Assembly (NCBI GenBank): GCA_016936755.1
Contig: JAFGXF010000037.1
Coordinates: 1-58,943 of the forward strand
Reading direction: 5' to 3'
Source: Anaerolineaceae bacterium
GTDB lineage: Bacteria; Chloroflexota; Anaerolineae; Anaerolineales; Anaerolineaceae
DNA length: 58,943 bases
Both the position numbers and the translations under genes were made by a program. Within the stretch, counting starts at the first letter, position 1. The number at the start of each line of letters is the position of its first letter. Under the pieces are notes generated by a model that ran no database searches, was not told the DNA's origin, and saw only the letters and a list, made by a program, of their open reading frames with translations. Shown here piece by piece: positions 14,949 through 20,141 of the stretch.

Positions 14949-15440
14949 ATGGCTAAAAAATACAAAATAATCGTAACCAACAATCCAGACCCTCTGGTTT
15001 TGCAGGTGATCCGTGAGGATGTCGAAGGTCTCCACGCGGCACACACACCACCGGCTGATTGGTTGCCCTTGGCCGTCATCATGTACGACCTGAAAGGTAG
15101 CATCATTGCCGGGGTGGTGGGGGGCAGTTACTGGGGGTGGTTGTATTTTGCACAGGTGTGGGTAAAAGACCCGCTTCGAAGCCGAAGCTATGGGCTTCGG
15201 CTATTTAAAGAAGCAGAGAAGGAAGCTCTCCATAGAGGATGCGGTCATTCCTTTGTTGAGACGCAGAGTTATGAATCCATGTTGTTTTATGAGTCCATCG
15301 GGTACCAGGTGGTTAAGAAAACCGAGGAGTCTGGAACCACCCGTTATGCTATGCAAAAAGAGCTTATTCAACAAAAAAAAAGAAGCACCGCTCCAAGTAA
15401 TGGAACAATCATCCGAACAAGCTCGCTATCATTTTGTTAA
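14949..15440 (+). CDS. GNAT acetyltransferase
   Basis: 163 residues. The GNAT core is visible from ~40: LKGSIIAGVVGGSYWGWLYFAQVWVK (beta 2-4), then the acetyl-CoA segment RSRSYGLRLFKEAEKEALHRGC, where the usual Q/R-x-x-G-x-G/A is RSYGLG-like, and the last strands HSFVETQSYESMLFYESIGY. Substrate unknown. After AMQKEL the tail crosses a run of nine A (15373-15381) and ends in an atypical, poorly conserved stretch. The next gene starts inside this tail in another frame; with one A fewer the two would form one protein. Confidence 0.82.
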   Translation: MAKKYKIIVTNNPDPLVLQVIREDVEGLHAAHTPPADWLPLAVIMYDLKGSIIAGVVGGSYWGWLYFAQVWVKDPLRSRSYGLRLFKEAEKEALHRGCGHSFVETQSYESMLFYESIGYQVVKKTEESGTTRYAMQKELIQQKKRSTAPSNGTIIRTSSLSFC

Positions 15441-15780
15441 GCATGATCAGTCTGGATTCGTGGAATGCCTGCCTGCCATGCTTATTTCAGGCGAGGCGGA
15501 AGCGCTGGAATTGATCGGTTTCTGCGGCGAGAATGAAACAGACCGTTTGTTGATCCATGCCGGCAACCTCACGGCGGATTTTTTTGACTTGCATACCAGA
15601 GTTGCAGGGAACATCTTGTTAAAGCTGGCCAATTACCGCATCACCCTGGCTGCGGTGATACCCAAAGATAAGATCGGCAATGGGCATTTTTCCGAGATGG
15701 TCATGGAAACCAACCGCGGACGTGAATTCCGGGTGTTTGATACCCGGAAAGAAGCGGTCAATTGGTTAACCTCTATATAA
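15400..15780 (+). CDS. DUF4180 protein
   Basis: 126 residues from ATG 15400, overlapping the GNAT gene by 41 bases. The DUF4180 pattern is clear: ALELIGFCGENETDRLLIH, then the DFFDLHTRVAGNILLKLANY core, KLA-like TLAAVIP, and ESNRG-like METNRGREFRVF followed by EAVNWL at the end. The family's biochemical role is not known to me. There is no ribosome-binding site before ATG 15400, which suggests coupling to the upstream gene or an authentic fusion broken in the A9 run. Confidence 0.8.
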   Translation: MEQSSEQARYHFVKHDQSGFVECLPAMLISGEAEALELIGFCGENETDRLLIHAGNLTADFFDLHTRVAGNILLKLANYRITLAAVIPKDKIGNGHFSEMVMETNRGREFRVFDTRKEAVNWLTSI

Positions 15781-15884
15781 TCCACCACTTGTTGATTTAC
15801 CAATGGGCTTGTTGTTGTTTTAGTCTGTAACCAATCACGATAAACAACATCAAAGTACGTGAAATAGATAAAGGAGAAAATGAT

Positions 15885-16691
15885 ATGCAATCCAAAAAAA
15901 TAACAAAGCCTAAGACCGATGGTATAAAGGAGGTAAAGTATCGCAAGCTGCGAAGATTCAATCTGGTGATGGGTTTTCTGCATCTATTGCAGGGAATCCT
16001 GATGATTCTCCTTAGTAATGAAACAACTTACCCCATATTTACCAACTATCTCAAATTTGACACCACAACGATGTCACTGACCCCCAATCCGGTACTTCTT
16101 TATGCCCTGAGATTCGGACCGGCAGTGGCTGCCTTTCTGTTGATTTCGGCGCTGGCGCATTTCGGCCTTGCCACATTTGGTTACAGATGGTATGTCCGTA
16201 ATCTCGAGAAGGGTATGAATCCTGCCAGGTTCTATGAATATGCTTTGAGCTCGTCCCTGATGATCGTGTTGATCGGGATGCTGGTCGGTATCTGGGACCT
16301 GGGCGCCATGATCCTGATGTTCGGCTTAAATGCCATGATGAATCTGTTCGGTATCATGATGGAGCTCCATAACCAGACAACCACGAAAACCAACTGGACA
16401 GCATTTATTTATGGCAGTGTTGCTGGGATCATCCCCTGGATTGTGATCGTAATGTACTTCCTCGGATCGCTGGGTTCATCGGACGCCAAGCCCCCGGCTT
16501 TCGTCTATGCGATCATCCCGACGATATTCGTGTTCTTCAATATTTTCGCCATCAATATGGTTCTGCAATATAAAAAGGTTGGTCGTTGGAAGGATTACCT
16601 GTATGGTGAACGGGTGTACATCATCCTCAGCCTGGTAGCCAAGACGGCCTTGGCCTGGCAGATATTTGCAGGCACGCTGGCACCGGTTTAG
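15885..16691 (+). CDS. Heliorhodopsin
   Basis: A 268-residue, seven-helix retinal protein of the heliorhodopsin family, distinct from type-1 rhodopsins in membrane orientation. Key residues seen by alignment in mind to heliorhodopsin 48C12: Schiff-base lysine K253 in LSLVAKTALAWQ (48C12 K241), counter-ion E118 in RFYEYALSSS (E107), His33, Ser88 and His92 in the SALAH segment (H23, S76, H80). Also family-typical are KLRRFNLVMGFLHLLQG, NAMMNLFGIMME, and DYLYGERVYIILS near the C-terminus. No pump motif; the role in light sensing or signalling is unknown for the family. AAGGAG lies 8 bases before the ATG. It stands alone with its own terminator, so a light-responsive partner must be elsewhere or nearby. 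Confidence 0.95.
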   Translation: MQSKKITKPKTDGIKEVKYRKLRRFNLVMGFLHLLQGILMILLSNETTYPIFTNYLKFDTTTMSLTPNPVLLYALRFGPAVAAFLLISALAHFGLATFGYRWYVRNLEKGMNPARFYEYALSSSLMIVLIGMLVGIWDLGAMILMFGLNAMMNLFGIMMELHNQTTTKTNWTAFIYGSVAGIIPWIVIVMYFLGSLGSSDAKPPAFVYAIIPTIFVFFNIFAINMVLQYKKVGRWKDYLYGERVYIILSLVAKTALAWQIFAGTLAPV

Positions 16692-16712
16692 TACTTGCTG
16701 ATAATGAAATTT

Positions 16713-16749
16713 AAAACATGCACGGCGTTACGCCGTGCATGTTTTATTT
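16713..16749 (+). terminator. Rho-independent terminator of heliorhodopsin
   Basis: Perfect 15-base stem AAAACATGCACGGCG (16713-16727) / CGCCGTGCATGTTTT (16731-16745), TTA loop, followed by T-rich ATTTC. The A-rich left arm makes it potentially bidirectional. Confidence 0.92.
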
Positions 16750-16778: not shown

Positions 16779-16807
16779 TTTTGTCAAACGGGAAACACTT
16801 GACAAAA
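16779..16807 (+). promoter_or_regulatory. Inverted repeat, candidate operator at the GyrI-like gene
   Basis: Nine-base arms TTTTGTCAA (16779-16787) and TTGACAAAA (16799-16807) are exact inverted repeats 11 bases apart. The right arm contains the -35 box TTGACA of the promoter, so a dimeric regulator bound here would block RNA polymerase. The repeat is separate from the terminator hairpin upstream. Confidence 0.5.
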
Positions 16808-16827
16808 TAGAACAAATGAGCTATATT
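16799..16827 (+). promoter_or_regulatory. Sigma-70-type promoter of the GyrI-like gene
   Basis: TTGACA (16799-16804), 17-base spacer and TATATT (16822-16827): the best promoter in the window. Transcription would begin near 16834, giving a leader of about 24 bases with AAGGAG (16844-16849) before ATG 16858. Confidence 0.8.
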
Positions 16828-16857: not shown

Positions 16858-17310
16858 ATGTATACATCGTGTGAGATTAAAGAGTTCCCTGATCGTCCGA
16901 TCTTGTCTGTCAGAACGCACGCAGCAGTTCAGGATTTACCACAGGTTTTGGGTGATATCTATGGCAGGATCATGGCGTACCTGGGTGAGCAGAAAACCGA
17001 ACCGACCGGGATGCCTTTTGTCATATACTACAACATGGATATGTCGAACCTTGATATTAAGGTTGGATTTGAAGCGCCAACCGGCCTGGCTGGAAACGCG
17101 GATATTCAACCAGGAACAATCCCGGCTGGCAGGGTGGTTTCCATGGTTTACACCGGGCCTTATGAGGAATGTGGATCGGCCTATGAGGCGATAACCAAGT
17201 GGATGAAGGATAATAATCTGACAGGAAATGGAACTGCGATCGAATTCTATCTGAACGATCCACGAGTTGATCCCCCTGCACAAACGCGCATCGAGATGCC
17301 GATTATGTAA
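16858..17310 (+). CDS. GyrI-like small-molecule-binding protein
   Basis: 150 residues forming a stand-alone GyrI/AraC-effector-binding domain: the N-terminal beta strands after IKEFPDRPILSVRTHAAVQ, a helix, VIYYNMDMSNLDIKVGFEAP, TIPAGRVVSMVYTGPYEECGSAYEAI, and the C-terminal IEFYLNDPRV...TRIEMPIM that closes the fold. Such proteins bind hydrophobic or cationic small molecules and either protect against toxins or sense them. No DNA-binding domain is attached. It has a strong promoter with an overlapping inverted repeat. A paralogous domain is fused to AraC at 19233-20141. Confidence 0.88.
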   Translation: MYTSCEIKEFPDRPILSVRTHAAVQDLPQVLGDIYGRIMAYLGEQKTEPTGMPFVIYYNMDMSNLDIKVGFEAPTGLAGNADIQPGTIPAGRVVSMVYTGPYEECGSAYEAITKWMKDNNLTGNGTAIEFYLNDPRVDPPAQTRIEMPIM

Positions 17311-19232: not shown

Positions 19233-20141
19233 TTATTTTATTGGTATGCAGATCTCGGTGCGAAGCCTGTCTTCCCTTGTTTTGGTCTTGTCGTCCAGGT
19301 AGATTTCAAAGGGTGCCTCGTTACGCAGAGTCATACCGCTGCCGGGCAACCAGTCACGGTAGATGGCGTTCCAGGCTTGCCAGAGCGTGCTGTAAGATCC
19401 CTGGTGAAGGAAGATCGCGTAACAACCAGCGGGAATCACCTTAATCTTGATATCATCCGTGACCGGGGGATTGATACTGGCCTTGAACATAAAGCCAGCC
19501 TCGTAACGCTGTTGATCTGCCGGGATGATATCCGGATCATCCGGGGAGATGCCCAGGCATAGACGAATGTGCGGTTCGAGATGGTTCTTTTCCACATACG
19601 CGCACAGTATTATAAATGCTTTGTCGGCGGCAACAGTGAAATCCTGATTAATCATCCCCTTAGCGGTTGCGTAATAAACGGTCATTTCGGGTAGTTCGCG
19701 AATCTCTGGATTCATTATCCTTCTCCTTTTAATATTCGTATTGGGTTGCGTGGGCAACACCGGCGACCGTCCGGTGGACCTGACCTGGGTAGGACTGACA
19801 TTGTAGAGTTTTCGAAATGCCTTGGTAAAGGCAGCTGGAGTATCGTAACCAGCTGCCAGAGCTATCTCTGTCACCTGTTTTCGGGTGTGAACCAGTGCGT
19901 GACAGGCAGCGATCAGTTTGGCCCTGCGTGTGTATTCACCCAGCGGTTCACCCACGAAAGCTGAAAAGATGCGATGAAAGTGGAAAGGTGAGAACCCGGC
20001 TACAGCGGCCAGCTCCTGTAAAGCGGGTTGTGCATCGGGATTCTCCCAGATAATGGCGATGACCTTGTTTATTCGATATCGGTAATCGAGTTCACTTAAG
20101 TGAGCAGCCAACTCACTTGGATCTCTCAGGTGACTGTTCAT
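19233..20141 (-). CDS. AraC-family regulator with GyrI-like effector domain
   Basis: 302 residues. N-terminal AraC/XylS double helix-turn-helix at ~23-125, with LQELAAVAGFSPFHFHRIFSAFVGEP and VTEIALAAGYDTPAAFTKAFRKLYNVSPTQVR as the two HTH motifs. After a linker, the C-terminal ~155 residues form a GyrI-like effector-binding domain (EIRELPEMTVYYATAKG..., ending FEIYLDDKTKTRE...TEICIPIK). This is the organisation of Rob/BmrR-type multidrug sensors. The target is unknown; the divergent PspC gene and the inverted repeat at 16779 are candidates. Effector is probably a hydrophobic or cationic compound. Confidence 0.92.
   Translation of the reverse strand: MNSHLRDPSELAAHLSELDYRYRINKVIAIIWENPDAQPALQELAAVAGFSPFHFHRIFSAFVGEPLGEYTRRAKLIAACHALVHTRKQVTEIALAAGYDTPAAFTKAFRKLYNVSPTQVRSTGRSPVLPTQPNTNIKRRRIMNPEIRELPEMTVYYATAKGMINQDFTVAADKAFIILCAYVEKNHLEPHIRLCLGISPDDPDIIPADQQRYEAGFMFKASINPPVTDDIKIKVIPAGCYAIFLHQGSYSTLWQAWNAIYRDWLPGSGMTLRNEAPFEIYLDDKTKTREDRLRTEICIPIK

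Follow-up and report, generated by a model that had tools for sequence, protein, structure and literature searches.

Heliorhodopsin in an Anaerolineaceae genome: conserved photochemical residues, an association with light-damage genes across Anaerolineales and the absence of known retinal genes

What might a heliorhodopsin do in an anaerobic member of the Anaerolineales (Chloroflexota), and from where would it obtain its retinal? The function of heliorhodopsins (HeRs) is an open question, and it is raised here by an open reading frame of 268 aa at positions 15885–16691, on the forward strand, of the window, by which we mean the whole 58,943-nucleotide stretch of Anaerolineaceae DNA that was analysed. 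A ribosome-binding site, AAAGGAG (15870–15876, forward strand), can be read directly in the sequence 8 nt 5' of its ATG. The initial annotation had named this gene a heliorhodopsin from its sequence, and had proposed a search with the family profile and a structural comparison with 48C12 as checks.

Both checks bear the name out. The match to the Pfam entry PF18761 (Heliorhodopsin) covers the whole model (E=2.9e-102, 341.6 bits against a cut-off of 26.7), and the NCBIfam HeR equivalog NF038020 is reached with 381.2 bits against a cut-off of 100, so the protein lies above the curated cut-offs of both databases. Solved heliorhodopsins are matched with E-values from 8.5e-81 (TaHeR, PDB 6is6) down to 9e-43. 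The AlphaFold2 model (pLDDT 89.3, pTM 0.84) has the HeR architecture, with seven long helices (residues 11–43, 77–96, 113–133, 139–165, 172–196, 207–230 and 238–265), an A–B loop with two beta strands (48–59 and 64–76) and a helix in the B–C loop (100–108). Its top match among PDB structures is again TaHeR (TM-score 0.89, 1.6–1.7 Å, 52% identity over 254 aligned columns), which differs in having an archaeal host, a Thermoplasmatales archaeon. Against 48C12 (PDB 6su3), a heliorhodopsin of actinobacterial origin, the TM-score is 0.82–0.84, with 42–44% identity in the structural alignment, and type-1 rhodopsins rank below the HeRs, mostly at 6–9 Å. The SxxxK motif of helix 7 is present as S249-LVA-K253, which places the Schiff-base lysine, K253, within SLVAK, and helix 3 carries the glutamate counterion, E118. 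Given these profile, solved-structure and fold matches, the family assignment is certain: the gene is a true, intact and ordinary heliorhodopsin. It has a single PF18761 match, from residue 22, with no extra N-terminal domain (MORN or zinc-finger fusion) in the Pfam search, and it is the sole copy detected in its genome assembly (2.29 Mb, 144 contigs, 87% complete). Residues 1–24 include 10 K/R and 2 D/E, which is compatible, under the positive-inside rule, with the predicted cytoplasmic N-terminus. Other HeRs bind all-trans-retinal, absorb at about 530–556 nm and have a slow photocycle (PMC7807009), and the window HeR would be expected to be photoactive as well.

The photochemical residues are intact. 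K253, E118, H33, S88 and H92 stand in the protein exactly as the initial annotation had read them; with the 48C12 numbering taken from PMC9726877, H33, S88, H92, E118, S249 and K253 correspond to H23, S76, H80, E107, S237 and K241. The proton and hydrogen-bond network of 48C12 comprises N16, H23, Q26, S76, H80, Y92, R104, E107, Y108, S111, E149, E230, S237, K241 and W246 (PMC9726877), and the window counterparts are N26, H33, Q36, S88, H92, Y103, R115, E118, Y119, S122, E160, E242, S249, K253 and W258; the complete proton-transfer network is therefore kept, but 48C12 is a more distant relative. In an alignment of 49 sequences spanning Chloroflexota, Trueperaceae, Spirochaetes and archaea, all 15 network residues fall within the 55 invariant columns (hypergeometric 9e-12, the invariance being due in part to general HeR constraint). 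The six marker residues are identical in 79/79 complete HeR sequences among 81 relatives; the remaining two relatives (L095 and L097) have a broken or cut HeR, that of Thermanaerothrix daxensis GNS-1 (L097) being frameshifted ahead of the lysine. Purifying selection acts on HeR among close pairs of relatives, for which dN/dS is mostly 0.05–0.19.

Some observations on the distribution of the family may be added. Five of the sampled genomes (G112, G121, G141, G144 and G459) have a broken HeR gene, with a frameshift, a stop codon or only a fragment left, so HeR is being lost in the order; G112 and L097 are probably one and the same genome. Three contigs labelled Spirochaetia or Spirochaetales (L071, L076 and L079) encode HeRs 71–76% identical to those of Chloroflexota, which points either to misbinning or to transfer. 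Contigs of Trueperaceae (Deinococcota) metagenome-assembled genomes, several of them independent (L084, L086–L090, L093 and L094), carry HeRs 65–69% identical to the window HeR.

At its locus, the gene had been described as monocistronic and followed by a very strong, perfect 15-bp terminator. The terminator-like hairpin (16712–16746, forward strand) is real, with a perfect stem of 16 rather than 15 bp, a TTA loop and T-rich sequence on both sides. No other perfect hairpin in the window is as long, and positions 16700–16760 fold strongly as RNA (−25.3 kcal/mol, z=−5.8 against shuffles). It may work bidirectionally; no gene converges on it. The monocistronic description thus stands at the 3' end but not at the 5' end, where nothing separates HeR from two genes on the same strand: a GNAT acetyltransferase gene (14949–15440; PF00583, 7.3e-07) and the DUF4180 gene that had been placed 5' of HeR, which matches PF13788 (4.4e-24) and ends at 15780, with an uncertain start (15400 is one candidate, and the domain begins at about 15478). 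The gap of 104 bp between DUF4180 and HeR contains no hairpin of at least 5 bp, and no promoter match was found in it by a scan that was itself uninformative (5 found against 5.9 expected). Since the genes are co-oriented and no hairpin interrupts the gap, monocistronic status is not established, and DUF4180 may share a transcript with HeR.

Beyond the hairpin, and outside the HeR unit, lies a gene for a GyrI-like small-molecule-binding protein (16858–17310, forward strand; PF06445, 8.3e-22), which had been predicted to stand under an operator-bearing promoter. Such a promoter is found at 16799–16827 (TTGACA-17-TATATT, 11/12, near-consensus), overlapped across its −35 box by a perfect 9-bp inverted repeat, TTTTGTCAA-N11-TTGACAAAA (16779–16807), a putative operator; the whole element spans 16779–16827 on the forward strand. 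A near-consensus promoter overlapping an inverted repeat makes the GyrI-like gene a separate, regulated unit. On the opposite strand, 2–3 kb downstream (19233–20141), lies a gene for an AraC-type regulator that resembles GyrI-like proteins in its C-terminal half. It is possible that the GyrI-like gene, this regulator, a nitroreductase gene and MFS genes form a drug-sensing circuit.

A statistical association emerges when HeR is followed across the family and the order. We used 147 genomes of the family, 42 of them with HeR, and 400 genomes of the order, 76 of them with HeR, and scored photolyase by PF03441. Within the family, photolyase is present in 29/42 genomes with HeR vs 42/105 without (odds ratio 3.3, p=0.0018), and permutation within genera gives p=0.014 and a Mantel–Haenszel odds ratio of 4.0, with the genus borders of unlisted genomes taken from the order of their handles. 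Outside the family, the corresponding counts are 24/36 vs 73 of approximately 217–245 (odds ratio about 4, p<4e-4), and for the order sample they are 53/76 vs 107/324 (odds ratio 4.7, p=9e-9). The linkage is also physical: HeR and photolyase are no more than 10 kb apart in at least 10 genomes from 7 genera (G075, G087, G268, G298, G300, G316, G452, G457, G458 and G459), where 0.3 would be expected, and shared ancestry among some of these genomes makes the independent linkage events fewer than ten. As 23 of the 76 genomes with HeR have no photolyase match, including that of Bellilinea (which we infer to be G007), photolyase is not an obligatory partner, and its co-occurrence may simply mark sunlit habitats. 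Carotenoid synthesis was considered as a companion of HeR and set aside, the phytoene/squalene synthase family SQS_PSY being unassociated (p=0.29).

The eight linked regions that were inspected resemble light islands, containing a MerR regulator with B12-binding domains (CarH/LitR-like), photolyase, DegV and an alpha/beta hydrolase. Small membrane-protein genes (DUF1295, DUF1475, DUF4345 and DUF3159) recur in them and crtI occurs in two; only HeR and photolyase are common to all eight. The gene order is crtB-crtI-HeR-CarH-MFS-photolyase in L136, and DegV-HeR-CarH in L031, which holds the best database match to the window HeR (83%); in G075 (L133), a single small gene stands between HeR and photolyase. 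Elsewhere, photolyase and carotenoid genes occur near Znf-HeRs (PMC8612252), photolyase and MerR groups have been linked with HeR (PMC11109279), and TfHeR of Trichococcus shows the genetic linkage between HeR and photolyase that we see here in the relatives of the window (PMC9769723). We did not find the combination of light-damage genes with HeR in Anaerolineales, or an order-wide count, stated in the literature examined; Chazan 2022 may contain part of it.

In the window itself, neither photolyase, a CarH-like gene nor crtI lies within 10 kb of HeR. The same genome has a CarH-like regulator directly adjoining a photolyase on contig C28 (L141). The regulator matches CarH in the PDB (E=1.5e-16) and has the W...EH region and an ExH motif, its start being lost at the contig end, and the photolyase has the E. 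coli photolyase as its best match (1.1e-98) and is therefore of class I type. Contig C81 holds a divergent crtB-crtI pair (L119:2393-4803) with no product assigned: the crtB-like protein scores just 78 bits with PF00494 and reaches no NCBIfam equivalog, and the crtI and crtB proteins are 63% and 48% identical to the HeR-adjacent pair in L136, such pairs standing beside HeR in relatives. The island elements are thus present in this genome but dispersed. In CarH/LitR terms, the genome has its CarH-like regulator beside photolyase and relatives keep HeR inside such islands, whereas the window HeR is detached. No CarH operator was identified at the HeR promoter in a by-eye comparison of the regions upstream of HeR and crtB, the carH promoter lying beyond the contig end.

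The initial annotation had also proposed looking for a carotenoid cleavage oxygenase, and here the outcome is negative: profile searches of the genome (87% complete) find neither a carotenoid oxygenase nor BCD, which makes the source of retinal the main open question. For lycopene cyclase there is nothing in this genome beyond a Rossmann-type fragment, in a family that is unspecific, since E. coli also matches it. BCD (Brp/Blh, PF15461) is found by profile search in 0/147 family genomes, and the model works, as full-length Brp/Blh matches in two Trueperaceae genomes with HeR demonstrate. Full-length carotenoid oxygenases occur in 3/147 family genomes, and G146 alone among these has HeR. In the order sample of 400 genomes, six have RPE65-family matches, three of them strong; among the 76 with HeR, an oxygenase is full-length in G146 and weak and partial in G452. 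HeR presence is independent of carotenoid oxygenase (p=1). The HeR of Bellilinea caldifistulae (L049) is the published BcHeR, photochemically characterised according to the title of the paper that PMC7807009 and PMC9769723 cite for it; it is 78% identical to the window HeR, has the same residues and probably comes from the same bacterial family. The Bellilinea genome is unlike that of the window in the neighbours of its HeR and in having no photolyase match, and it has no match for phytoene synthase, oxygenase or BCD. Nakajima et al. mention in passing Chloroflexi rhodopsin bearers without blh and diox1, and another bacterium without both still makes retinal (PMC7734400); our counts extend the observation of missing retinal genes to the whole order. 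Retinal synthesis is reportedly missing from the host of TaHeR too, with entry of outside retinal by way of a fenestration as the proposed route (PMC9385722).

We consider it probable, with some reserve, that this HeR is a photosensor in a response to light or UV damage, acting alongside or modulating photolyase and a CarH/LitR-like regulator, with retinal that is external or reaches it by an unrecognised route. Of the functions considered, the photosensory role offered by the initial annotation has the best support but falls short of proof; the photolyase linkage and the intact photochemical residues speak for it. HeR, in the predicted inverted topology with a cytoplasmic N-terminus, would absorb green-yellow light through retinal, which it would bind from outside or from an unrecognised route, because the genome has no known retinal-cleavage gene. 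A proton would leave the K253 Schiff base via E118 to the H92/H33 network, and the ensuing change of shape may be slow enough for signalling. The light signal would then feed a programme against photodamage in which CarH and photolyase also take part, HeR acting alongside, or modulating, the photolyase and the B12 light-dependent CarH/LitR-like regulator encoded on the other contig.

Other readings have been weighed against the neighbourhoods of 80 related loci, with flanks of up to 10 kb. The neighbouring redox and drug-sensing genes had been put forward as possible partners, and one could imagine HeR controlling the adjacent drug-efflux or drug-sensing genes (an MFS pair, the GyrI-like gene and a nitroreductase), as OcHeR does with an ABC exporter; these genes do adjoin HeR in the window, and Ornithinimicrobium is known to have a multidrug ABC transporter whose activity is modulated by light (PMC11109279). 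None of the window neighbours (MFS, DUF4180, GyrI-like, nitroreductase) recurs near HeR in any of the 80 loci at the clustering threshold, and the sole MFS match is distant (25% identity), so they are weak candidates; the strong terminator and the separate regulated promoter moreover part HeR from the GyrI-like gene, and we regard such control as extremely improbable. The two largest clusters in the survey were discarded as out-of-frame ORFs within HeR itself. Leaving aside a mixed ATPase-type cluster, the commonest genuine neighbour is DegV, at just 10/80 loci. An association of HeR with DegV was reportedly noted by Chazan in 2022. It is repeated in PMC9385722, and would suit a light-dependent change of membrane lipids by HeR together with DegV-type fatty-acid-binding proteins: seven of the ten DegV genes lie within 300 bp of HeR, the best match L031 is among the ten loci, and the recurrent DUF1295, DUF1475, DUF4345 and DUF3159 genes of the islands encode membrane proteins. 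However, the window has no DegV gene close to HeR, the 7–8 DegV genes elsewhere in its genome make their presence little informative, and in genus-36 relatives DegV is divergent from HeR, not co-oriented; we think this quite unlikely.

A further reading is direct binding and boosting of photolyase by HeR, as for TfHeR with a class 2 photolyase (PMC9769723). The co-occurrence and physical linkage across the order, and the single small gene between the two in G075, favour it. TfHeR and its class 2 enzyme share one operon, whereas the photolyase of the window's genome is of class I and on another contig, and, with photolyase missing from the 23 HeR-bearing genomes, we judge direct binding unlikely. 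A light-independent HeR, binding some hydrophobic ligand in a host unable to make retinal, would accord with the lack of BCD and cleavage-oxygenase genes in this genome and almost throughout its relatives, with the origin of some relatives in mine, groundwater or digester samples (by record titles) and with the broken copies in five genomes. Yet the Schiff-base lysine, the counterion and the whole proton network are unchanged in all complete copies, which is hard to explain without selection on a retinylidene photocycle, and HeR is associated with photolyase; we consider light independence very unlikely.

The interest of this locus is therefore the retinal gap and the light-damage link, not the HeR gene itself. 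In one bacterial order, HeR is tied both statistically and positionally to light-damage genes, and nearly all of its bearers keep the pocket unchanged yet have none of the known genes for retinal cleavage. Bellilinea caldifistulae, a cultured anaerobe, has a close relative of this HeR and no carotenoid or retinal gene found by our searches, which makes the source of retinal directly testable. We tentatively entertain the possibility that Anaerolineales with a fully functional HeR and none of the known retinal-cleavage genes either synthesise retinal along a route yet to be described, for which the divergent crtB-crtI pair may be the starting point, or rely on retinal that other organisms release; if this is true, their HeR would report the state of the light through a borrowed chromophore.
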